A stretch of DNA of 47,143 nucleotides from Candidatus Poribacteria bacterium. GTDB lineage: Bacteria; Poribacteria; WGA-4E; WGA-3G. Position 1 is the first letter of the stretch, and every line of letters starts with the position of its first letter. Below the pieces are notes generated by a model. It made no database searches and was not told the DNA's origin. It saw only the letters and a program-made list of their open reading frames with translations. Shown here piece after piece: positions 35,849 through 46,859 of the stretch. Both the position numbers and the translations under genes were made by a program. The DNA lies in NCBI GenBank assembly GCA_022827885.1, contig JAJEIP010000093.1, positions 1 to 47,143 on the forward strand, in the 5' to 3' direction.

Positions 35849-36655
35849 TTATTGCGACTTAATGTCTGCCCACGTTGTTGTTAGCCGTCCCAGCGGGGTG
35901 ACAGGCGTTAAACCGAGCACCGAACCGAGCCCGTCGTTCATTATGTTCTGGATATCGGCTTGTTCGAGTGGCACATTGAAAATGCCGATCTCGTCCATCA
36001 ATCCCAACGCTTGTCTTTGCGTAGGTGTTCCTCCCAGATGGACATCAACGCCTGCAACACCGAAAACACCTGTTGTATCCTGATCAACGTCAACTTCACC
36101 ATCAATGTAGAGGACTTTCTTCGCACCGTCGTAGGTGAAGGCGAGGTGATGCCACTGATCGTCATTGACTGCGGTCGGTCCAAAGAGCCACCGCGGGTTC
36201 AGTTCTCGGCTACCGACTTCGACTTTCCCTTGGTTTCCACTTCTACCCGGACCGAAGACGTTCAGAATATTGTTCCAATTGGTCGTAAAGGCGATGACCA
36301 TGTGATCGTCTGCACAACATCCACCGTGCGGATCGCCTTTTCGTTGGATTTTTACCCATGCGACACCGGTGAAGGCTTCAGCGGTGCTGTCCAAACTCTC
36401 TGAATTTGCGACATTGACGTAGTCATCATCGCCGTCGAGGCTAAGTGCTTTTCCCCATTTGCCGCCATCGGTAACCTCTGCGCCGTTTATAAGCTCACCA
36501 TCGTTTCCGTAGCTGCTGGAATCGCTAACATCGCCATCGTCGAAGAGCCAGACCCCGACAGCCGTCTCACTGTCGACTGCGGCGAAGCTCGGCAGTGGGA
36601 TGAACACCAATCCCAGGACTGCCAAAACGCATAGGATTGCCCAATTTTTTGCCAT
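35849..36655 (-). CDS. Exported LamG (concanavalin-like) protein with C-terminal LTTTWADIK tag
   Basis: The 268-residue product has a signal peptide (ILCVLAVLGLVFIPLPSFA) and one LamG/LamGL jelly-roll domain. Its landmarks are VGVWLFDDGDVSDSSSYGND, GKALSLDGDDDYVNV, FTGVAWVKIQ, DDQWHHLAFTYDGAKKVLYI and LMDEIGIFNVPLEQADIQNI. Such domains bind glycans or proteins. The extreme C-terminus, RLTTTWADIKSQ, is shared with two other exported proteins in this window. AAGGAG precedes the start, and a near-consensus promoter lies about 70 bases upstream. Confidence 0.83.
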   Translation of the reverse strand: MAKNWAILCVLAVLGLVFIPLPSFAAVDSETAVGVWLFDDGDVSDSSSYGNDGELINGAEVTDGGKWGKALSLDGDDDYVNVANSESLDSTAEAFTGVAWVKIQRKGDPHGGCCADDHMVIAFTTNWNNILNVFGPGRSGNQGKVEVGSRELNPRWLFGPTAVNDDQWHHLAFTYDGAKKVLYIDGEVDVDQDTTGVFGVAGVDVHLGGTPTQRQALGLMDEIGIFNVPLEQADIQNIMNDGLGSVLGLTPVTPLGRLTTTWADIKSQ

Positions 36656-36724
36656 TTTACAAATCTCCTTTGAAAAATGTGAGTGGATTGCCTAAACAAA
36701 CCGTTGATGCATCAATTTTTCGCT

Positions 36725-36753
36725 ATTTTATCATAAGGTGCGCGTAATGTCAA
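36725..36753 (-). promoter_or_regulatory. Near-consensus promoter for the LamG gene
   Basis: On the minus strand TTGACA (36748-36753) and TAAAAT (36725-36730) are separated by 17 bp. The start site would be near 36718, about 60 bases before the ATG at 36655. It is divergent from the promoter at 36777-36806. Confidence 0.7.
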
Positions 36754-36776
36754 GTAGAATCTATTTTCCTTTTTTA

Positions 36777-36806
36777 TTGATTCTATGGATTGAAATTCGT
36801 TATAAT
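36777..36806 (+). promoter_or_regulatory. Promoter candidate for the small membrane protein gene
   Basis: TTGATT (36777-36782) and TATAAT (36801-36806) are 18 bp apart. Transcription from about 36813 would give a 95-base leader containing CCGAAA (36874-36879) paired with TTTCGG (36889-36894) just before the ribosome site AAGGAG. Confidence 0.6.
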
Positions 36807-36907
36807 TTTAGAATGAGAAGATGAACAACCCCTAAGTCAGCGGCGACTCCGAAACTGGAGCGGCATTTCGTATCCGAAAACGACCGACTTTCGGAAAGGA
36901 GAAAACG

Positions 36908-37279
36908 ATGGAAGGTAAGATTCTGCCTTGGCATCTCCCCCTAACAGATTGGTTACTGGGAGCAACGGTTCTGTTCGCAACCACTGGCACCGTCATCCTC
37001 TGTCGATTCTTGTTGCGTCGGTGGAAAGCGTGGCGGATTCAAAAGTTTCTTGATCAACGCGCAGCACTCGCATCTCCGGGCGCGCAGAAGTTTACGGCAT
37101 ACGATAAGCAGCTGCTTACGAAAAGGATTCGGCAATCGGGAAACGAGCGTTTGGAGAAAAGTTTCGCCTTCCAAGGGAATGCCGATCTTTACGTCGCTAT
37201 TGGGCTTTTCGGATTGGCGATGATTGCTTTGGTCTTGTTAGCCCTCGCCAATGGCTTCCATAAGCATGGACTTCCATAA
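36908..37279 (+). CDS. Small membrane protein of unknown function
   Basis: The 123-residue product has two hydrophobic spans (about residues 12-36, LTDWLLGATVLFATTGTVIL; and about 92-115, VAIGLFGLAMIALVLLALA). They flank a basic, probably cytoplasmic loop rich in K, R and Q. AAGGAG lies upstream and a promoter candidate at 36777-36806. No family is recognised. Its stop is 17 bp from the right-end hairpin of the tnpB remnant, so the element inserted directly behind it. Confidence 0.6.
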   Translation: MEGKILPWHLPLTDWLLGATVLFATTGTVILCRFLLRRWKAWRIQKFLDQRAALASPGAQKFTAYDKQLLTKRIRQSGNERLEKSFAFQGNADLYVAIGLFGLAMIALVLLALANGFHKHGLP

Positions 37280-37296
37280 ATACAGATGTGATAGCA

Positions 37297-38120
37297 CCCA
37301 CACGCTAAAGCGTGGGGCTTATGTTTGACACACTTATACTTCAATATCTCAACAAACTGGTAGAAGGCAAGGTCGGAGACCTTACGTCCCCAAAGCCGCT
37401 TCATGCCATCAAGGTTCAAGGTTTCAATCGCAATCGTATCAAAACGCTTACAAAGTTCTGTCGCAAGTTGCCAATGAAAGTCTGTGCGTTGGTTTGTGAT
37501 TTTACGATACAGACGGGCTATTGCCCGAACACACCGCCACCAAGCCCCAGAACCTTTTTGTTTACGACTCAGTTCTTTGTTGAGGCTACGAAGTTTATTC
37601 AAGGACTGTTTCAAAGGTTGTGGGTGCTGTTTCTTCTCACCCGTGCTAAAGGTCAAGTACGCGTCTTTCATGCCGAAGTCTGCTCCAACGCTCTTACCTG
37701 TTGTCGGCAGACGTTTCATGTCCGTGGAGTCCGTGGTGATACAAAGCCAATAGTCACCGCAGTTATCACGCTTTATCGTGATATACCTAATAGAACCGTG
37801 CCACTGACGGTGTTTATGGAAAGTGTAAGGTATCTTTCTAAAAGACCAAAGTTTTTTAGAAGCATTCCACTCTCTAAAAGTAAGTGTGATCCGATTGTTT
37901 TTCACGTCCCATCCCGCTTGTCCGGGAAAGGTGATAGACTTGAACTTATGCCGTTTTTTGATGTTTGGTCTACCCCCAAGTTTCTTGAAAAAACGATCAT
38001 ATGCTTTATCAATACGCCGCAATTCTTCTTGAATCGCTTGGCTCGGCAAGGCGTTCCAATTTTACGACAAACCCAACGCCTGCCTACATCCCGCAAGCTA
38101 AAGCATGGGGTCTTGGCGGG
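37297..38120 (-). mobile_element. Decayed IS200/IS605-type element (tnpB only)
   Basis: The right-end hairpin is CCC-A-CACGC-TAAA-GCGTG-GGG (37297-37317) with a bulged A, typical of IS200/IS605 ends. A related segment, CCCGCAAGCTAAAGCATGGGG, lies at 38090-38110 and continues to GGCGGG at 38120. Both share GCTAAAGC. A tnpB remnant lies between them on the minus strand, and no tnpA is present. Exact borders were set by the hairpins and may be off by some tens of bases. Confidence 0.7.
37330..38049 (-). pseudogene. tnpB: tnpB (RNA-guided nuclease) remnant lacking both ends
   Basis: The frame from TTG 38049 gives LPSQAIQEELRRIDKAYDRFF, which in intact TnpB lies 60-80 residues into the protein. 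The codons before it (NWNA) follow a stop, so the N-terminus is lost. RuvC motif I is present (GADFGMKD, D124) and motif II (IAIETLNLDGM, E209), followed by SDLAFYQFVEILKYKC. Directly after residue 240 the frame runs into the right-end hairpin and on to 37189. The zinc finger (CxxCG...CxxC) and the third RuvC aspartate are therefore deleted. The protein cannot be an active nuclease. Confidence 0.8.
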
Positions 38121-38136
38121 AAGATTGATAACCGGC

Positions 38137-38164
38137 GCGGTGGACTTTGGTTCACCGCTTTTTT
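38137..38164 (+). terminator. Intrinsic terminator
   Basis: GCGGTGGA (38137-38144) pairs with TTCACCGC (38151-38158), including one G-T wobble, around a six-base loop. Six T residues (38159-38164) follow immediately. No plus-strand gene ends nearby except the small membrane protein gene at 37279, from which it is separated by the tnpB element. Confidence 0.75.
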
Positions 38165-38318
38165 GTCACTCCTAATCGAATCCGTGATAGAATAGCAAAT
38201 GATTGATAAGACAAATTAATTGTTAATTGTCTACCTACGTATCATACATTTAACGCCACGTGTCGTCACGAATGCTTGGTTCACGACGCTTTCACCCAAT
38301 AAAAGTGAGGTTTGGCAA

Positions 38319-39083
38319 ATGAAGATCGTAATAGCGGATTTAATACTGGCGTGTGTTGGTTTAATTGTCCTGAGTCTAATGTTTACTGGTATGAGCAGTG
38401 CCGAATTTGATCTGAAAACCGTTGCCGGGATGTGGCTCTTTGATGAAGGTAAGGGGAACACAGCGGCGGATTCCTCTGAAAATGGGAATGATGGGAAATT
38501 TGAAAACGATCCAAAATGGACGAATGACGGTAAGTTCGGATCCGCGTTGGAATTCGATGGAAACGAGAGTAAGGGACATGTCGTTGTCGGGGATTTAGGC
38601 TTAGATGGAGAGGTTACACTGGTTCTGTGGGCAAATCCGAAGGATGCCGCCAATGATGATCGGTTGATATCGAATATCAGTGGACCGACAAATCCGGCTT
38701 TCACAACTCGGTACCAAGGTGAAACAGTTGAAATCTGGAGTAGCGCATGGAAACCCGTCATCCCAGAATTTGATGACAATAAATGGGGACACTATGCGTT
38801 TGTCTTTGATGGTGAGGGAAATGTAACGGGCTATTACAACGGCACAGAAGGTGAGACTGTTGCCGATTCCTATACGTTCACGGAGATCGGTATTGGTGCG
38901 AATTTTTTGGATCAATGGGGACAATACTTTTCCGGTCTCTTTGACGAGATCGCGTTTTTCAGTGTTGCGCTCACTGAAGATGACATCAAAGTCATCATGA
39001 CAAAAGGACTGAAATCCGCTCTGGCGGTTTACCCTGCTGGGAAATTAACCACCACATGGGGCAACATAAAAGTCAGTCCGTAG
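38319..39083 (+). CDS. Exported LamG protein with C-terminal LTTTWGNIK tag
   Basis: The start at 38319 (MKIVIADLILACVGLIVL, a signal peptide) has GAGGT upstream; an in-frame extension to 38220 lacks a ribosome site. The 254-residue product is a single LamG-type domain: VAGMWLFDEGKGNTAADSSE, GSALEFDGNESKGHVVV, VTLVLWANPKD, NKWGHYAFVFDGEGNVTGYY and GLFDEIAFFSVALTEDDI. It is clearly related to the LamG protein at 35849-36655. It ends in KLTTTWGNIKVSP, the same tag. It precedes the GH67-like fusion gene by 58 bp and may be cotranscribed with it. Confidence 0.83.
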   Translation: MKIVIADLILACVGLIVLSLMFTGMSSAEFDLKTVAGMWLFDEGKGNTAADSSENGNDGKFENDPKWTNDGKFGSALEFDGNESKGHVVVGDLGLDGEVTLVLWANPKDAANDDRLISNISGPTNPAFTTRYQGETVEIWSSAWKPVIPEFDDNKWGHYAFVFDGEGNVTGYYNGTEGETVADSYTFTEIGIGANFLDQWGQYFSGLFDEIAFFSVALTEDDIKVIMTKGLKSALAVYPAGKLTTTWGNIKVSP

Positions 39084-39141
39084 GGATCAAACTAACGGGA
39101 AAACAAAATAATCTTAATCGCGAAAGATACGGAGCGAACAC

Positions 39142-42100
39142 ATGGAATATCACGCATTCATTACCCTTTTTGTAATAGCGGCATTGGTCTTAGCGAGTGA
39201 ACTAAGTAGTGTAACAGCGGGTGAAATCGAGGGATTGGTCGGTCATTGGGATTTTGACGACGGAACCGGAACCGATCTTTCTGGAAACGGGAACCACGCT
39301 GTACTTGGTAGCGCAAAGATTTATTCACTCGGTGAGGGGCGTGCGTGTATCGAAACGATGCCCAAAACCGAACCGATGCAGATCCCAGTGCCTGAGAACG
39401 CTCCGCTTGTAATGTCGCGTGGCACCATCTGTTTCTGGCTAAATACAATATCGGATCGGTCCAACATTCTCAGATATAACAACGATGCTATTGAATTGAA
39501 CACCTATCGTGGCTGTTTTCAAGTGCGTTTCCGGGGTGAACAGGATTTTGAATACTGGGAAGGGATTCTCGACTACGACTGGCCCCAATACGACATGCGT
39601 GAATGGGCGTTCTATCCGCATGTAAAAGCCACCATTGGCGATTCCGAATGGCATCTGTTCGCGGTTGCTTATGACGACGAAGCGAAGCAAATCGTAGGGT
39701 GGCGTGATGGCGAGCAGATTGCCACGGTTGACTTGTCAACGGTGGATACGGAACCGCTGCGCCGTGAAGGTTTAACGGAGATTCACACGGGTGAAGGCTT
39801 TGTCGGCTTTCTTGACGATCTGCGTATTTACGATAAGCCACTCACCGACGCTGAAATCCGTCGGATTTACGACGAGACCAAAGCCATCTATGCGGGACGA
39901 CGGGATACGAATCCGGCTGAAAGCAGGCAGAACACTTACCAGTACCAAGAAATAGACAGGACACTCTACAAGGCGTGGCTACAATTCAATCCGCTTGATA
40001 CAGAACAACACAATCAGGATTTATTCAGAACCATCGTCGCTGAGGGAGCGAATTCAACCATCCAGACGGCTGCTTCTGAATTGGCACAGGCGGCGGAATC
40101 CATGTTCAATTTTAATCCCTCCGTTTCGGAGACTGCCACTGGACCGAGGATCATTCTCGGGACAGCCGAAACCTCCAACTGGATCCGTGATCGTGCAGAA
40201 GACCTTCAACTCGATAAAATCGAAGCAGATGGGTTCGTCATCAAGGCGCTGGAAGATGCGGTTGTGGTTGCGGGCGGAATACCCGCAGGGGTGGTTTTTG
40301 GTGCCTTCGACCTGCTGCGCCGCATCCAGATTGGACAGGATCTGCGCACACTCGATGTCTTGGAAAATCCACAGGTGCCGATCCGTATGGTATCACACTG
40401 GTCATATTTCCGAGGACTTTTCGGCGACAGATGGCGCGGGGGTGGCAGAGACGATTCGATCTTCAGTTGGGAAGAGTTGCGTACGGGTGATACGAAACGC
40501 ATCCGAGATTGGGTACGTATGTTGGCATCGTGTGGTTGGAATGCGCTCTGTCCGAGTGAGATTAACTGGCATTACCGCAACAACTTTTTAGATCATCTCG
40601 ATGCGGTCGAAAAACTCGCCGACATCTGCCGAGACTACGGCATCAAACTCTATTGGAGTCCGAGTTATCTCTTGGCACTCGACCCAAAAACCGCCGATAC
40701 CCTCTATGCCCGTGTGCCTGACTTCGGTGGCTACATGATGAAACTCGGTTCAGAGAAACAGAACGGTGATCCACGTCCGCCAATGACGAACCGGATTGCG
40801 GATACGCTGAAACCGTATGGCGGAAAGGTGCTCGTGCGGGCATTCGTCTACGGTAACTTGCGATATACACCTGAACCCTATCGGAACTTGATCCCTTACG
40901 ATCTGTTTGCCCACGAAGACGGCAATTTCCGAGACAACGTTATTATCGTTCCGAAAGGCAGCCCTATGGATTGGGATCTGTGGGCACCGATCCCCGCACT
41001 TGATGGTGCGATTCAGAAAAACCTCTATGGCAGCGAACTCGTCATTGATAAGAGTTGGCCCGTCTCTTGGGTCAAAAAGTGGAAATGGTGGTTTGAACAG
41101 GATACCTATCGCAATGGTCCGGGGAGCCTTAACAAATTCAGTGTGGATTGCATCATGGGGGTGTCAATGATATCGCCGTCACCGGCATGGACAGAATGCC
41201 CACTGAACGCCGTGAACTATTACGGACTGGGTCGGCTCTCTTGGAACCCAAATTTGACAGTAGATGAAATTTACAGGGAATGGATTCAGCAGACATTTGG
41301 CGATGATCCAGATATACTTCAAAGGGTTAAGACTATCCTAATGATGCTTGAAGAGGTGACACGTAAGTCCTACAACTATCGGGGTTACCGCGGTATATGG
41401 TTTGATTCCTCCGACCCCGGTATGACAGAGAACAAGACCCCCTATGTCGTCAACAGGGAAGGGATAGGTGTTACAACCCCGGCGTTGCGTGAACGCGTGT
41501 TAGCGCAGTATGCCCCAGGACTTCAAAAGATATATGGGGATCCGTTGCGTGCGGAAGCACATCTCGCTGCTTTTCACTTCACGGAACACGATCGGCGACT
41601 TTCTATCGGCAGGACCCTCATCCAAGACATCTACGCCAACATGGAAGAGGCGGTCGAGATGGCGATACAGGCATCTGAACTCTGGAAAACGCTTGAAGAC
41701 AAGATTGACCCACATAGATATGAATACACATTGAAAACCCTGGTGGACTATGCCGAATCCGTGCGCAGCATGACCCTTAAGAAATGGGTGACGAACCTTG
41801 AGAAATATACGAGCAGAAAACGCGAGGAAACCCTCGCGGAACTAACAGCGGAAGCACTTGCGAAAGTTGGCACATACAACGTGAAGCATTTCGGTGCCGT
41901 TGCCGATGGCACATCAAACGATGCGGACGCGATTAACAAAGCCATTACCGATTGCCACGCCACTGGGGGCGGAACGGTCTTCGTACCTTCGGGTGTCTAC
42001 GCGACGGGTTCTATCTACTTGAAAAGCAACGTTACGTTCGCAGTTGATGAGGGTGCTGTCCTTAAGTTTTCTTTCCCTAACGCAGATGTCGCACTGCTTG

Positions 42101-42471
42101 TCGGATCGGAATTGGAAAGCGTGAAAATATACGGTCCCGGAACCCTTGATGGCGCGGGCAACACGTGTATCGCATTAAAACGCACTAAAAACGTGGAAAT
42201 CCGAAACCTGAATGTCTATAGAGGCGGTAATACCGCAATTCTATCTGAAAATTGTGACGGAACGCTTATTGACAACGTGAACATTCGAACGGATAACGAT
42301 GGGCTTACGCTTTCTGAATCTCACAACGTAACGGTTACCGACTGCCGTATCGACGCGGTACACCGCGAGTATGGGAGACATGTCGGGGGTGGTGAAGCAA
42401 TCAAAGTCAGCGGTGAAGAACACTCGTCCAGAAACATCACCGTTCAAGATTGCTTTTTTGCAAACGAATAG
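39142..42471 (+). CDS. Exported LamG / GH67-like / truncated GH28 fusion protein
   Basis: The 1109-residue product starts with a signal peptide (to about residue 26). A LamG domain follows (about 28-245; GLVGHWDFDDGTGTDLSGNG, GFLDDLRIYDKPLTDAEI). A GH67 alpha-glucuronidase-like N-terminal domain (about 330-400; RIILGTAETSNWI, FGAFDLLRRIQIG) leads to a catalytic-like barrel (about 410-800; PIRMVSHWSYFRGL, LSWNPNLTVDEIYREWIQQT). From about residue 911 comes a GH28 polygalacturonase-type start (VKHFGAVADGTSNDADAI, TGGGTVFVPSGVY). Only about 200 residues of that beta-helix remain, the GDD catalytic segment is not recognisable, and the chain ends in a hairpin repeat. A xylan- or pectin-type substrate is likely. 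Confidence 0.8.
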   Translation: MEYHAFITLFVIAALVLASELSSVTAGEIEGLVGHWDFDDGTGTDLSGNGNHAVLGSAKIYSLGEGRACIETMPKTEPMQIPVPENAPLVMSRGTICFWLNTISDRSNILRYNNDAIELNTYRGCFQVRFRGEQDFEYWEGILDYDWPQYDMREWAFYPHVKATIGDSEWHLFAVAYDDEAKQIVGWRDGEQIATVDLSTVDTEPLRREGLTEIHTGEGFVGFLDDLRIYDKPLTDAEIRRIYDETKAIYAGRRDTNPAESRQNTYQYQEIDRTLYKAWLQFNPLDTEQHNQDLFRTIVAEGANSTIQTAASELAQAAESMFNFNPSVSETATGPRIILGTAETSNWIRDRAEDLQLDKIEADGFVIKALEDAVVVAGGIPAGVVFGAFDLLRRIQIGQDLRTLDVLENPQVPIRMVSHWSYFRGLFGDRWRGGGRDDSIFSWEELRTGDTKRIRDWVRMLASCGWNALCPSEINWHYRNNFLDHLDAVEKLADICRDYGIKLYWSPSYLLALDPKTADTLYARVPDFGGYMMKLGSEKQNGDPRPPMTNRIADTLKPYGGKVLVRAFVYGNLRYTPEPYRNLIPYDLFAHEDGNFRDNVIIVPKGSPMDWDLWAPIPALDGAIQKNLYGSELVIDKSWPVSWVKKWKWWFEQDTYRNGPGSLNKFSVDCIMGVSMISPSPAWTECPLNAVNYYGLGRLSWNPNLTVDEIYREWIQQTFGDDPDILQRVKTILMMLEEVTRKSYNYRGYRGIWFDSSDPGMTENKTPYVVNREGIGVTTPALRERVLAQYAPGLQKIYGDPLRAEAHLAAFHFTEHDRRLSIGRTLIQDIYANMEEAVEMAIQASELWKTLEDKIDPHRYEYTLKTLVDYAESVRSMTLKKWVTNLEKYTSRKREETLAELTAEALAKVGTYNVKHFGAVADGTSNDADAINKAITDCHATGGGTVFVPSGVYATGSIYLKSNVTFAVDEGAVLKFSFPNADVALLVGSELESVKIYGPGTLDGAGNTCIALKRTKNVEIRNLNVYRGGNTAILSENCDGTLIDNVNIRTDNDGLTLSESHNVTVTDCRIDAVHREYGRHVGGGEAIKVSGEEHSSRNITVQDCFFANE

Positions 42472-42494
42472 GCGAGGTTAGGAAACCTCGCCTA
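42469..42494. repeat. Perfect 11-bp hairpin starting at a stop codon
   Basis: TAGGCGAGGTT (42469-42479) and AACCTCGCCTA (42484-42494) are exact reverse complements around AGGA. The first three bases are the TAG stop of the GH67/GH28 fusion gene. A degraded relative appears at about 4493-4523 (GGTGATGTTAAGAAACCCCA then CCTACC), and the core is shared with 35809-35835. It separates convergent genes and could serve as a terminator. Confidence 0.6.
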
Positions 42495-42517
42495 CCAGGG
42501 AGTTGTGTAAGTCCTAA

Positions 42518-44359
42518 TTAATCATCGTCGCGTTCACTCAGCAATTCTCCGCGAGCGAGACGCTCTGCGTTTTCGGTAGACCACAAGATATTTTTCATCA
42601 GTTTCTGTGCCGTGATGTAACGGGTCGCTGCCAATAGATGCATCCGCTGTTCTTCAACATCTACCGACAACTCGTAATGTCGGAACGCCACTTCCAGCAC
42701 CTGGAACATGTGCAGTTCTGCGTCTTCGCGAAGAAGGATGTGTGAGAGTGCCTGCTTCAACGGCTCAATCTCATGCCCTTCCTCCAGATATTGGTTCACC
42801 AGAATTTCTGCCTCATAGACCTTCTGGAAATCCGCAAACTCTTGTAGCCGCTCCAGCATCTTATCAACAGAGTCATAGGTTTCATCAAGCCGCTGTCCCT
42901 GCCTCGGTATACGAGCGGCAGGCATGTTTAACCAACGCAGATATGCCAAGAAAACAACACCGTGAAAAATACCACGCAGTAAATGGGCACTCGGTGCGTA
43001 ATCAAAGGCGTGGTACAGGGCGTGTGCATAGGAGTAAATGTTCGCCACATCGTGCCAATCGCCTTCGTTTTTGAGATGAAAACGAGCCGTCCGAATCGCC
43101 GAAGCGTAGGTCATTGCGCGGCAGATGTCTCGTGGATTCACACCGGCACGCAGTTTTTCTTCCACCACAACGACAATTGGCTCGAAATCGTCACCGAGGA
43201 GTGTCTGTGTAAACGCCGAAATATCGAGTTCGGCTGTGTTGGCTTGGTTGTCCTTCCAGATACTGTCAAGTCGTTCAAAGACGGGTTCTAACACAGGCAC
43301 GGCATCTGCCCAGCGTGAGGTTTCCTCATGACGAGTTCGACTCACGAGATCAACAACAATCGGGCGTAAGATTTCGTGTGCGCCTTCCCATTCGACATAA
43401 TCCAACGCCTCGAACATCTTGTTGGCGAAATCGAGGGCGTGTCCGTCGCCTGTAAAGTAGAAATCGGTCGCGGCGGTGAAGACGAAATCAGCGAGTACCG
43501 ATTTATCGTAGCCGCGGTCATTCAGCGTCAACAGGATCCGCTCGGCTGCCCCTGAGTGCCGTTTATCCACAAAGTAGCGGAACCACCGCTTGAGCGTTTC
43601 GAGGTCGTGTTCCTCACTCATTGCGGGAAACGGGGCACGATAGGGACGGGAACTCCCTGTCGTTCGACGGCTAATCTGACTTAAGCCGTGGACGAGAAAC
43701 AGGTTGTGGTCGTTTGAGTCTACATCGTCCCACAAGTTCGCAGCCAAAGTGAGGATAGCGACACCGGACGACCATCCCTCGCTACTTTTATGGGCGCCGT
43801 AGTGGAGGCCCTGATGAATGATTTCGTTCGGTGCTGCGCCAGCGTCTCGCAGCGCGGTGACGGCTTTCGCGATAAAGAAGGTGCTGCGGTCTTTGAGCCC
43901 TCGTTCGAGTGCCCGTTTGCCACGGTCAATGACGCGTCGTTTTGCCGCTTCTCGTTCACCTTTTGCCAATCCAACATACAGATAACCGTCATCACGGAGT
44001 TCAACGGGAAAGGCTTTCAAATCATCGCCAAACGCCTGAAAACAACCCCCTGATTTGAGGTCGAATTCCCAGTGATGCCAATGACAAATCAGGACACCGT
44101 CTCGGATGCTGCCTTTGGACATAGGATACCCCATGTGTGGGCACCGGTTATCAACGGCGTAAAATTGATCTTCGTATTTGAAAACAGCCAGGTGCGTGCC
44201 GTTGACATGGAACGGCTTGCCTTCGAAGTCTTGAAACTCGTCAGGGCGACAGAGTTGATGGTAGTCGAGATCGGTGTGATCTACCATCTCTACAGGCACG
44301 GGTTCAAAGTGGATAGAACCGGCACCGGCTTCTTCGGGGGTAAAGGTTGAAGTACGCAC
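42518..44359 (-). CDS. Rieske [2Fe-2S] protein with large uncharacterised C-terminal domain
   Basis: The start is GTG 44359, supported by AGGAGG six bases upstream. The 613-residue product has a Rieske domain (about residues 30-130) with intact cluster ligands C73-x-H75 (CPHMG) and C92-x-x-H95 (CHWHHWEF). The remaining roughly 480 residues are helical and match no family I can name. They contain several histidine/acid-rich stretches (EIIHQGLHYGAHKSSEGW, NIYSYAHALYHAFDY, SAHLLRGIFHG, LREDAELHMFQVLEVAFRHYE). These could bind a second metal centre, but this is inference. No leader is visible, so it is probably cytoplasmic. It is divergent from the enolase-superfamily gene. Confidence 0.82.
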   Translation of the reverse strand: MRTSTFTPEEAGAGSIHFEPVPVEMVDHTDLDYHQLCRPDEFQDFEGKPFHVNGTHLAVFKYEDQFYAVDNRCPHMGYPMSKGSIRDGVLICHWHHWEFDLKSGGCFQAFGDDLKAFPVELRDDGYLYVGLAKGEREAAKRRVIDRGKRALERGLKDRSTFFIAKAVTALRDAGAAPNEIIHQGLHYGAHKSSEGWSSGVAILTLAANLWDDVDSNDHNLFLVHGLSQISRRTTGSSRPYRAPFPAMSEEHDLETLKRWFRYFVDKRHSGAAERILLTLNDRGYDKSVLADFVFTAATDFYFTGDGHALDFANKMFEALDYVEWEGAHEILRPIVVDLVSRTRHEETSRWADAVPVLEPVFERLDSIWKDNQANTAELDISAFTQTLLGDDFEPIVVVVEEKLRAGVNPRDICRAMTYASAIRTARFHLKNEGDWHDVANIYSYAHALYHAFDYAPSAHLLRGIFHGVVFLAYLRWLNMPAARIPRQGQRLDETYDSVDKMLERLQEFADFQKVYEAEILVNQYLEEGHEIEPLKQALSHILLREDAELHMFQVLEVAFRHYELSVDVEEQRMHLLAATRYITAQKLMKNILWSTENAERLARGELLSERDDD

Positions 44360-44439
44360 AATTCTCCTCCTGACACTTAGTGTTCAATTCAAGCAGATTC
44401 GGTGTAAAACTTTTCTTTTTTTATTTCATTCTAACTATA

Positions 44440-44468
44440 ATTATAGCATCTATCAATTTTTAAAGCAA
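44440..44468 (-). promoter_or_regulatory. Promoter candidate for the Rieske gene, within a palindromic -10
   Basis: On the minus strand TTGCTT (44463-44468) and TATAAT (44440-44445) are 17 bp apart. The palindrome CTATAATTATAG (44435-44446) also presents TATAAT on the plus strand (44436-44441), so divergent transcription of the enolase-superfamily gene could overlap it. No good plus-strand -35 was found. Confidence 0.5.
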
Positions 44469-44488
44469 GTATGGCAGAGGCATTCACT

Positions 44489-45730
44489 ATGAAAATTACA
44501 GAAATCGAAGTTCACGAGATCACGCTTGAATACCAAGATTTTCTCGCCTATCAACTCAATCACTACTACGGTCCGATCCGGCGGACTGTATATGTTGTCT
44601 ACACGGACACAGGCTTGGAAGGGCTGGGTGAGAGTGGGAGACGCGAGCCTCAAGATGTTATCGATCAGTATATCGGGACGAATCCGTTTGATTGGGTAGG
44701 AGATGAGACCTCGCTTGGACTCGGCACGGCGATGTATGACTTGATGGGGAAGGCAGCAGGCGTGCCGGTGTATAAATTATTCGGACAGAAGTATCGTTCG
44801 TGGGTGCCTGTGGGCTGTTGGACGGTTTCGACCGACCCCGCGCGCATGGCAGAGACCGTTGCTACATACGCGGCACAGGGGTACACATGGATGAAATATC
44901 ACCTCTCCCCCTTCGAGAATGTCCTCGACCAGACCGAGGCGATGGAAGCCGTCGCACCGGAGGGATTCAAGATCCACTACGACTTCACGATGGGCGGGAC
45001 AGATGACCACATCCCTGAATTGGTTGATGCCTTGTCTCAATATCGCATCGCGGGTTGCTTTGAAGATCCGTTGCCTGGTGAAGACCTGCAGGGTTACGCA
45101 GAACTCCGTCAACGCTCGCGACTGCCGATTGTACTCCACCATTTTCCGATGGGCGCAACATACGAGGTGTTCATGAGACCGGCAGACATTTACATGCTCG
45201 GACACGCGAAAATCGGTGATGCGATCCGGCGCGCAGGACTTTTCGCGGCAAATGGGTGTCCGTTCATGCTTCAGAATGTCGGTGGAAATATTACGCGTGC
45301 GATGACCACTCACATGATGGCGGCGTTTCCAACGGCGACCTTCCATTTTCATTCGGATACTGAGACGTGGAAAACAGATGTGGTCAACGAGGATTTAACC
45401 CCGATTAACGGATTTGTGCGTGTTCCTGAATCTCCTGGACTCGGTGTAACGCTGGATCGTGATGAATTAGAGCGTCTAAAGTCTTTAAAATTGCCGGAAC
45501 AGGAGCGGTGGATTCTCAAATCTCAATTCAAAAACGGGACGCGGATGTATAACATCGCGGATCCAAGGAATTCGCTTTTCATGGTGCGTCCGGATCGGAG
45601 CCGTCTGATTCCGATGGGTTACACCGCCCCTATTTCTACGACGTATTGGGACGACGATGGTAGTGCTGAATACCAAGAGACCTTCGCGCGTATTGAACGG
45701 GAAGGCGTGGTTTTGGAGAGGAATGTGTAG
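44489..45730 (+). CDS. Enolase-superfamily (mandelate racemase/muconate lactonizing) protein, divergent site
   Basis: I prefer ATG 44489 (MKITEIEVHEI), with AGAGG upstream, over ATG 44471, which lacks a ribosome site. The 413-residue product has the N-terminal capping domain (KITEIEVHEI, GLEGLGESG) and the barrel of sugar-acid dehydratase-type enzymes (MYDLMGKAAGVPVYKLFG, QGYTWMKYHLS). The first two metal ligands are present: D165 (IHYDFTMG) and E192 (CFEDPL). At the third position, normally D or E, the sequence reads VLHHFP (H217/H218). The catalytic KxK and HxD signatures are also not clear. It may be a dehydratase with altered metal binding or an inactive relative. Confidence 0.8.
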   Translation: MKITEIEVHEITLEYQDFLAYQLNHYYGPIRRTVYVVYTDTGLEGLGESGRREPQDVIDQYIGTNPFDWVGDETSLGLGTAMYDLMGKAAGVPVYKLFGQKYRSWVPVGCWTVSTDPARMAETVATYAAQGYTWMKYHLSPFENVLDQTEAMEAVAPEGFKIHYDFTMGGTDDHIPELVDALSQYRIAGCFEDPLPGEDLQGYAELRQRSRLPIVLHHFPMGATYEVFMRPADIYMLGHAKIGDAIRRAGLFAANGCPFMLQNVGGNITRAMTTHMMAAFPTATFHFHSDTETWKTDVVNEDLTPINGFVRVPESPGLGVTLDRDELERLKSLKLPEQERWILKSQFKNGTRMYNIADPRNSLFMVRPDRSRLIPMGYTAPISTTYWDDDGSAEYQETFARIEREGVVLERNV

Positions 45731-45824
45731 GAATACACTTTTTTAGTAATATGCACCCTTTTCGCCGATAAATGTGTCTTTAAGTTACAAGACATCGAAA
45801 AATTATAAAGCAAGGAGGATGATA

Positions 45825-46859
45825 GTGCAAAATTTCTTTTCCAAGACCTTTGTTTGTATGCTCACGCTGGGGCTGTTGTGTGTAAACGTTTCCCCGCTTT
45901 TCGCGGAAGCACCAACAACGCCCAAAATCCTGTTCACCTCTGGGGTAGTTGACAATTACGAAGTCTTCATCATGAATCCGGATGGTAGCGAACAGATAAA
46001 CCTAACACAACACGGCGCAAACGATTTGCAAGCCGTTTGGTCACCGACTGGCGAAAAGATTCTCTTCGTCTCCGATCGTAGTAGAGGTATCCGAGACCTG
46101 TATATGATGAACCCAGATGGATCCAATGTCCGACGCGTCTTCAGGAAAAAAACAGAAACTTGGAGAACAGACCCGACTTGGTCGCCGGATGGCAAACAGT
46201 TTGCTTACCGACATACAAATTGGAATAATGGGACGATTGATATCTACATAGCGACCTTCGGTGAACAAGATGTAGAACTACTCGTTGATAACGGTAGTAG
46301 CCCAGTATGGTCGCCAGATGGGACGGAAATTGCCTATACTGCTTATCCCGTCCCCGGATGGGGAGAAGTCAGTCGGATTACACTTATTGACGTCCATACA
46401 CGAAAACGAAAATTTATCCTACCCAAGAAAGCGATGTCTTGGCAACATGGTCCATCTTGGTCCACTACTGGTGCCAAACTCGTTTTTTCTTGGAACAAGC
46501 ATCCGTTCCCACCGGACTTCAACCCGCGGGTTGATCGCGCGCCTCTCGCATGGAAAAATAAACAAACCATCTATAGTATCAACCGAGACGGCACCGGACT
46601 CAAACAACTCGTCGATGAGGCGGGCAATTACGCACAAATTCCCAAGTTATCACCAAATGGCAATGAACTCCTCTATACACAGGAAATTATGGGACGATTC
46701 CAAATTTTCAAAATCGATCTAAACAGTGGCGTTCAAACACAGATGACACATACTGAGTGGAATCTCGGGGGAGATTGGTTTGATCCGGCGTATGCGTTGC
46801 CCGTTTCACCTCAGCCGGAGTTGCTAACGACAATGTGGGGAGAAGTGAAAAAGAAGTAA
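45825..46859 (+). CDS. Exported TolB/PD40-type beta-propeller with C-terminal LTTMWGEVK tag
   Basis: The start is GTG 45825, six bases after GGAGG (45814-45818); an in-frame ATG at 45819 abuts the ribosome site and is too close. The 344-residue product has a signal peptide (FFSKTFVCMLTLGLLCVNV) and TolB-like blades. Examples are DNYEVFIMNPDGSEQINLT, AVWSPTGEKILFVSDRSRG, PTWSPDGKQFAYRH and PVWSPDGTEIAYTAY. It ends in LLTTMWGEVKKK, the tag also seen on both LamG proteins. It is not the Tol-Pal TolB, since no tol or pal genes lie nearby. Confidence 0.82.
   Translation: MQNFFSKTFVCMLTLGLLCVNVSPLFAEAPTTPKILFTSGVVDNYEVFIMNPDGSEQINLTQHGANDLQAVWSPTGEKILFVSDRSRGIRDLYMMNPDGSNVRRVFRKKTETWRTDPTWSPDGKQFAYRHTNWNNGTIDIYIATFGEQDVELLVDNGSSPVWSPDGTEIAYTAYPVPGWGEVSRITLIDVHTRKRKFILPKKAMSWQHGPSWSTTGAKLVFSWNKHPFPPDFNPRVDRAPLAWKNKQTIYSINRDGTGLKQLVDEAGNYAQIPKLSPNGNELLYTQEIMGRFQIFKIDLNSGVQTQMTHTEWNLGGDWFDPAYALPVSPQPELLTTMWGEVKKK

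Follow-up and report, generated by a model that had tools for sequence, protein, structure and literature searches.

Three exported proteins with a common tail

The window, a stretch of 47,143 nucleotides of Candidatus Poribacteria bacterium (GCA_022827885.1, contig JAJEIP010000093.1, positions 1 to 47,143 of the forward strand), encodes three exported proteins that end in the same C-terminal tag. The first is a LamG protein of 268 amino acids on the minus strand (35849..36655; translation, Pfam Laminin_G_3 and AF2), whose tag, ...LTPVTPLGRLTTTWADIKSQ-stop, occupies 35852..35911 on that strand (tail HMM match, E 8.3e-8). The second, also a LamG protein (translation, Pfam Laminin_G_3), lies on the plus strand at 38319..39083, with about 254 amino acids counted from a likely internal Met, and carries its tag, ALAVYPAGKLTTTWGNIKVSP-stop, at 39018..39080 on the plus strand (HMM match 39018-39077, E 1.7e-10). 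The third is a TolB-like/PD40 beta-propeller of about 346 amino acids, again from a likely internal Met (45819..46859, plus strand; Pfam PD40 and AF2), and its tag, ALPVSPQPELLTTMWGEVKKK-stop, lies at 46794..46856 on the plus strand (HMM match, E 1.2e-7). The open reading frames of the latter two proteins begin at 38220 and 45774; the likely starts, chosen from the sequence and the homologues, are internal Met codons at ~38319 and ~45819, which would place a hydrophobic stretch at the N-terminus of both proteins.

Translation places LTTTWADIKSQ (35852-35884, minus strand), LTTTWGNIKVSP (39045-39080) and LTTMWGEVKKK (46824-46856) at the extreme C-termini, each with a stop codon directly after it. 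The sequence-only reading had reported these three tails on two LamG proteins and one TolB-like propeller, and both the positions and the folds agree with what we find, Pfam giving Laminin_G_3 twice and a PD40/TolB-like propeller once. The shared end motif that it described is likewise real, but the conserved unit is longer than claimed, beginning ~10 residues ahead of the Trp with V-x-[PA]-x-[GD]-K. In the AF2 models the LamG domain of the 268-residue protein and the propeller are both well folded, and the tails lie outside these folds, with pLDDT of 49-59 and 42-49, respectively. At this low confidence, the two models suggest a short helix on a flexible linker, with no strands.

The tag and its carriers

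The tag has the consensus V-[ESD]-[PA]-x-G-K-L-[AT]-T-T-W-[GA]-x-[LI]-K followed by a few residues, ~20 residues in all. At the DNA level, the genome contains 28 occurrences of the pattern encoding TTW[GA]x[IV]K and 0 of the reversed control, and 128 of the broader T-W-[GA]-x-[ILVM]-K against 9 for the control; these comparisons rule out a chance origin of the tails. With an HMM of 22 positions, at least 150 copies are found in this genome (the best 150 of 268 candidates, all with E <= 0.0025), and in all 150 of these best matches a stop codon lies at, or at most 11 residues past, the tail, making the motif a C-terminal and not an internal one. The proteome-wide statistics are built on the searches and on the genome stretches that were taken. 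The tail had been described as free of Cys, LPXTG and membrane helix, and this is borne out: none of these, nor a Gly-Gly cleavage motif, is found in the tag, and the residues after the HMM match (at most 11) contain neither a hydrophobic helix nor a basic stop-transfer end. No Pfam or NCBIfam model covers the tag. An amphipathic helix was considered and rejected, the hydrophobic moment of the tails giving no signal beyond that of column-shuffled tails.

The tag is found on exported, not cytoplasmic, proteins. An export-type hydrophobic N-terminus is present in all 136 complete carriers of this genome and, in a comparison with control reading frames, in 132 of 134 carriers versus 137 of 285 others. 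A signal-peptidase-like small-x-small site follows the hydrophobic segment in 309 of the 313 carriers that have one. Lipoprotein or LPXTG-like anchoring was rejected, as a lipobox occurs in only 5 of 336 tagged reading frames and a C-terminal helix in none. The carriers make up ~30 unrelated sequence groups and span at least 10 Pfam families; their folds include LamG, TolB-like/PD40 and Kelch propellers, ankyrin, LTD+Big_12 (LTD/Ig), CBM9, CBM4_9, F5/8 type C, NPCBM and 3-keto-disaccharide-hydrolase-like domains. The presence of the tag is thus demonstrably independent of fold, and the earlier argument that ancestry of the fold fails as an explanation holds for the whole set of carriers. One carrier (L268) is an inner-membrane-anchored fusion of ECF-sigma, TM and Kelch parts.

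The mention in the sequence-only reading of similar tails in Poribacteria proved correct. The source is itself a member of that phylum, the tag is present in 85 of 85 Poribacteria genomes, and it is almost absent elsewhere among the 85,000 species genomes scanned. The tails are nearly unchanged in the most distant Poribacteria families.

Known sorting signals and T9SS outer-membrane proteins of the phylum

It is informative to compare the tag with C-terminal signals that are already known. Encapsulin cargo-loading peptides are short and C-terminal, with a T-x-G-x-L-[KR]-like core, and the tag resembles them in all three respects; encapsulin cargo is cytoplasmic, however, whereas every complete carrier of the tag has an export-type N-terminus. 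The PEP-CTERM/exosortase, GlyGly-CTERM/rhombosortase and MYXO-CTERM/myxosortase systems share with the tag a short C-terminal signature that is characteristic of a lineage and is found on many unrelated exported proteins. Unlike the tag, they have a transmembrane helix and a basic end after the signature, and the combination of signature, transmembrane helix and basic residues typical of such tripartite tags and of LPXTG is absent here. Nor is the tag a C-terminal extension specific to LamG proteins, since Kelch, PD40, ankyrin, LTD, CBM and other proteins carry it.

The T9SS CTD of type A (TIGR04183, Por_Secre_tail) is like the tag in being strictly C-terminal on Sec-exported proteins of unrelated folds, in occurring many times per genome and in having no membrane helix. 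In the CTD of P. gingivalis HBP35, the C-terminal 22 residues are the minimal part needed for a GFP fusion to be translocated to the surface in a T9SS-dependent manner (PMC3120885). The carriers likewise combine an N-terminal Sec signal with a strictly C-terminal one, and the genome encodes outer-membrane machinery of the SprA, PorV and PorU-like kinds. In contrast, the type A CTD is an Ig-like beta domain of ~70-80 amino acids with a GxY motif and a basic end, and TIGR04183 and its relatives form a C-terminal beta-sandwich of 40-80 amino acids, whereas the tag, V-x-P-x-G-K-L-x-T-T-W-G-x-L-K, is a conserved unit of ~20 amino acids that AF2 renders not as a beta-sandwich but as a low-confidence linker and short helix. 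Although GKLATTWGxLK looks by eye like GDFTATRKMLI of this genome's CTDs, the idea that the tag corresponds to the final strand of a T9SS CTD was abandoned when profile comparison gave nothing: no HMM cross-matches link the tag with the classical CTDs that this genome encodes (hhalign probability 0.2%), and no Pfam or NCBIfam CTD model matches the tag proteins. Short T9SS CTDs of 43-55 amino acids that retain the CTD motifs B, D and E have been described in Prevotella intermedia (PMC11969387). These are similar to the tag as reduced C-terminal signals beside CTDs of normal length in the same genome, but the tag is under half their length and none of the motifs B, D and E is recognisable in it.

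A 2014 paper reported the T9SS outer-membrane set missing, yet we find it in the phylum, with SprA across the phylum and PorV, PorU-like proteins and classical CTDs in this genome. SprA is present in 84 of 85 Poribacteria genomes, the match in this genome (4.9e-41) lying below the curated cut-off. This genome also has 16 places with PorV-family matches, 7 of them over the cut-off, three PorU-like C25 peptidases below the family cut-off, and ~38 classical CTDs. The motor protein GldM was found in 0 of 85 genomes by the GldM model, in a search that had no positive control. A tagged gene adjoins sprA only in the genus of the window (its own genome and 6 relatives); adjacency as proof of a tag-T9SS linkage was therefore dismissed, since no tagged gene lies beside sprA in 14 genomes of other genera. 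Co-occurrence of the tag and SprA cannot discriminate either, as nearly all genomes of the phylum have both. One tagged protein and one classical-CTD protein of this genome have in common a 174-aa domain (70% identity), so that one domain occurs with both kinds of ending.

What the tag may do

Some form of targeting or docking function is very probable for the tail. Its C-terminal position, its exported carriers, their many folds and its presence throughout the phylum give good support to the view that it marks some route or destination; this much stands of the earlier suggestion of an export or surface-attachment route. We infer a sorting signal, a surface destination and the T9SS as reader. 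The carriers would first be exported through the Sec pathway. A receptor, either periplasmic or located at the outer membrane, would then recognise the tag (20 residues, V-x-P-x-G-K-L-x-T-T-W-G-x-[LI]-K) and direct the protein to, or fix it at, a final location that is most likely the cell surface. The most likely reader would be the T9SS-type outer-membrane translocon of the phylum, with SprA and a PorV-like shuttle, and the tag would then be a second, minimal T9SS signal, serving mainly small proteins of 200-400 amino acids while the classical Ig-like CTD serves large ones. We put this joint claim, of a surface-directed post-Sec targeting tag read most likely by the T9SS translocon, at nearly an even chance, and the reading of the tag by that translocon, taken by itself, somewhat lower.

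Alternatively, the tag may be a docking peptide for a receptor other than the T9SS, with a periplasmic or surface scaffold holding the tagged proteins by a Trp-centred peptide, as dockerins or cargo-loading peptides do, without translocation across the outer membrane. We regard this as a serious if rather doubtful possibility. It fits a short linear peptide with a flexible linker and a weakly predicted helix (AF2), the unfixed position of the free carboxylate (0-11 residues follow), the absence of homology to T9SS CTDs and the many carriers that are binding domains (LamG, CBMs, F5/8C) and not enzymes. The tagged sigma-factor/Kelch fusion, anchored in the inner membrane and so unable to be secreted whole, argues for docking over T9SS secretion. 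Against docking, no receptor was identified, and the domain found with both a T9SS CTD and the tag suggests a shared destination. A processing signal, at which a dedicated transpeptidase or protease would cut within the tail and anchor the protein in the manner of PEP-CTERM, GlyGly-CTERM or MYXO-CTERM but without the membrane helix, is improbable. Like known sorting tags, the tail occurs phylum-wide and strictly at the C-terminus, with dozens to hundreds of substrates in each genome, and the genome has three PorU-like C25 peptidases, but the tag lacks the hydrophobic helix, basic stop-transfer end and cleavage motifs (Cys, Gly-Gly or LPXTG), and no processing-enzyme gene adjoins the tag genes in the regions read.

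We consider it very unlikely that the tail is a structural or stability element within the protein, for example a cap shielding the C-terminus from proteases. Such an element requires no partner and would presumably suit periplasmic or surface proteins, but the same residues recur on unrelated folds with differing C-terminal geometry, AF2 packs the tail on neither the LamG domain nor the propeller, and the invariant Trp and Lys exceed what a cap needs. That the tail was inherited with the LamG domain or is borne by a spreading, mobile repeat is scarcely credible. LamG-type proteins are the largest group of carriers, with 71 of the best 150 matches, but the diversity of the other folds rules out common LamG ancestry. 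Likewise, the tail shows almost the same variety of synonymous codons as is seen elsewhere, and no DNA is conserved downstream of the stop codon, which excludes mobile DNA or a palindromic repeat; because synonymous choice is near-random, selection acts on the peptide. Of the 6 residues that are invariant across 40 LamG homologues (mostly at 23-35% identity to the window protein), 4 sit in the tail.

The tag, then, is a likely "address label" of the sponge-associated Poribacteria for a destination beyond the inner membrane, carried in each genome by well over a hundred exported proteins with no other relationship, and it is apparently undescribed as a signal. It is conceivable, at a little under even odds, that the phylum has a localisation code of its own, in which an undescribed receptor reads a 20-residue, anchor-free tag that is unrelated to described sorting signals and marks over 150 proteins of the surface or periplasm in each genome. 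If this holds, an address could be given to several percent of the genes in most Poribacteria genomes, and proteins now named hypothetical or LamG would be united in a single sorted set, in which many have domains suitable for glycan binding. A short tag without a membrane anchor would then join the known C-terminal sorting signals, and a simple sequence test would be available for the surface proteins of an uncultured phylum. Two entries of the species scan from outside Poribacteria (L161 and L176) have only 3 and 1 copies of the tag in their genomes; with so few copies a second tag-bearing lineage was set aside, and misbinned contigs or transfer are the likelier source.

A C-terminal tag on exported proteins of many folds

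The three window tails picked out by the sequence-only reading (on carriers at 35849–36655, minus strand, and 38319–39083 and 45819–46859, plus strand) lie at the positions it gave; on translation each continues to its own stop codon, and domain searches agree that two carriers are LamG proteins (Laminin_G_3) and one is a propeller (PD40/TolB-like). The shared C-terminal motif it proposed stands, on a far larger scale than the sequence alone showed. Within the genome to which the window belongs as contig C142 (5.13 Mb, 148 contigs, 97% complete), a strict DNA pattern occurs 28 times versus 0 for the reversed control and a broader pattern 128 times versus 9, and an HMM of 22 positions, derived from 28 tails, finds at least 150 places, all those listed having E ≤0.0025. 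The tag is strictly C-terminal, as had been claimed: a stop codon lies at, or at most 11 residues after, all 150 HMM matches listed. The consensus of 152 C-terminal tails, among them one TPR protein that the simple pattern picked up falsely, reads L-[AP]-V(94%)-[ESD]-P(76%)-x-G(48%)-K(82%)-L(84%)-[AT]-T(80%)-T(73%)-W(100%)-[GA](98%)-x-[LIV]-K(97%)-x-x. The tail has no Pfam or NCBIfam match in the three window carriers, nor any in 30 further carriers searched against Pfam alone. Between two of the tagged window genes lies an ORF (37189–38049, minus) that by eye is IS200/IS605-type TnpB-like.

Once the tails are removed, the 150 carriers sort into about 30 groups that share no detectable similarity (36 raw groups, seven being short fragments). 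Among the folds assigned are LamG, PD40 and Kelch propellers, ankyrin repeats, LTD, Big_12, CBM9, CBM4_9, F5/8 type C, NPCBM and 3-keto-disaccharide hydrolase; of the 30 group representatives searched, about half have no Pfam match. Because so many of these folds are not LamG, the tag extends well beyond LamG homologues. When 40 LamG carriers, mostly 23–35% identical to the window protein, are aligned, the tail accounts for four of the six invariant columns. Synonymous codons at conserved tail positions are nearly as varied as elsewhere (1.91 versus 1.95 bits for the Thr beside the Trp) and the 40 positions 3′ of the stop show no conserved base, which together exclude a mobile repeat or recent copying as the cause. 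AlphaFold2 with alignments models the LamG protein and the propeller as well folded (mean pLDDT 78 and 80), with the final 18–20 residues at 42–59 and a weak, low-confidence short helix across TTW[GA]x[IV]K in both; in these models the tail is attached through a flexible linker and lies outside either fold. A hydrophobic-moment test of this helix gave no signal above column-shuffled tails.

The prediction that carriers are exported held, with a strongly hydrophobic N-terminal stretch in all 136 complete carriers. Under one common rule 132 of 134 carriers pass versus 137 of 285 other ORFs from the same stretches, a contrast that is indicative because the control set mixes in spurious ORFs and other exported proteins. 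When every locus is counted, 313 of 336 carriers satisfy the rule, and many of the others are truncated by the edge of the extracted stretch; a small-x-small site follows the hydrophobic stretch in 309 of the 313, and only five carriers have a lipobox.

Distribution of the tag

The tail occurs in 85 of 85 Poribacteria genomes (22 genera, 10 families), with 15 to more than 100 matches in each, and its consensus is preserved in the most distant families. When 85,000 species, each represented by a single genome, were scanned with the pattern, at least 114 loci were recovered; all 125 scan matches listed sit 0–12 residues upstream of a stop, and of the 80 loci listed 78 bear the title Candidatus Poribacteria or uncultured Poribacteria. 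Given these near-exclusive titles, the tag is a Poribacteria trait as far as the species scan extends; the two genomes titled otherwise hold only 3 and 1 copies.

Type IX secretion components in Poribacteria

A survey from 2014 reported that Poribacteria have no structural genes for Por secretion, and we found no later report of a type IX secretion system (T9SS) there in a literature search that covered few subscription journals. The genome nonetheless encodes a 2262-aa SprA/Sov homologue (contig C81:18754-25542; TIGR04189, E 4.9e-41), whose 140-bit score is under the curated 200 and whose match spans most of the protein. SprA homologues of about 2200 aa occur in 84 of 85 Poribacteria genomes (among them loci L313-L332 and L389-L408) versus 0 of 14 control genomes, the sole exception being G030, which is 81% complete. 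A possible TnpB-like ORF was also seen near sprA at one locus (L392). The PorV family is found at 16 places in the window's genome, 7 above cut-off; three PorU-like C25 proteins give partial matches of 250–290 bits, under the 420-bit cut-off; and there are about 38 classical type-A C-terminal domains (CTDs), on proteins of median length 863 aa versus 272 aa for tag carriers. The motor protein GldM had no match among the 85 genomes in a search without a positive control. Several PorV genes adjoin a giant CTD protein. At five loci, L350 (C81:49956-57407), L352 (C15:31678-35922), L356 (C65:15680-23568), L359 (C1:528-7368) and L358 (C132:31849-34282), the protein directly adjoining the PorV-family gene has a sorting-like C-terminal end (protein length 464–2277 aa; one PorU-like), which suggests dedicated cargo-shuttle pairs.

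What may read the tag

There is good support for this apparently undescribed element being a tag that works outside the cytoplasm, in targeting or docking. To our knowledge, no system other than the T9SS recognises C-terminal signals that lack a membrane helix on proteins exported by Sec. T9SS components occur in the genome, and this system would read the tag on Sec-exported carriers; we propose this tentatively, at somewhat less than an even chance. Consistent with it, the minimal required signal of HBP35 is its C-terminal 22 residues (PMC3120885; also PMC5445135), and P. intermedia has shortened CTDs alongside normal ones (PMC11969387). Within one genome, moreover, a tagged 407-aa protein (L106:2131-3351) and a classical-CTD protein of ~1600 aa (L376, from base 435) have a common 174-aa domain at 70% identity; one domain is therefore found with either ending, which points to a recent exchange of the C-terminal parts.

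Other observations sit less easily with the T9SS. No relation between the tag and the genome's own CTDs could be detected, the tag may be helical according to the models, and a tagged gene adjoins sprA only in the window's genus. In addition, one ORF of genome G017 (L268, minus strand) joins, by eye, an ECF sigma region, a membrane helix, a Kelch propeller and the tag; this fusion, a possible sensor with its outside end tagged, would be anchored in the inner membrane and could not cross the outer membrane whole. A separate docking receptor, rather than the T9SS, may read the tag, a reading we regard as only slightly less likely than the T9SS.

At five loci (L136, L094, L256, L223 and L211), LTD-type proteins end in a last domain LPVELSxF...YYYQIEDVSLDG followed by the tag. 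We take this domain to be of the kind that precedes T9SS CTDs in Bacteroidota, the tag here taking the place of the CTD.
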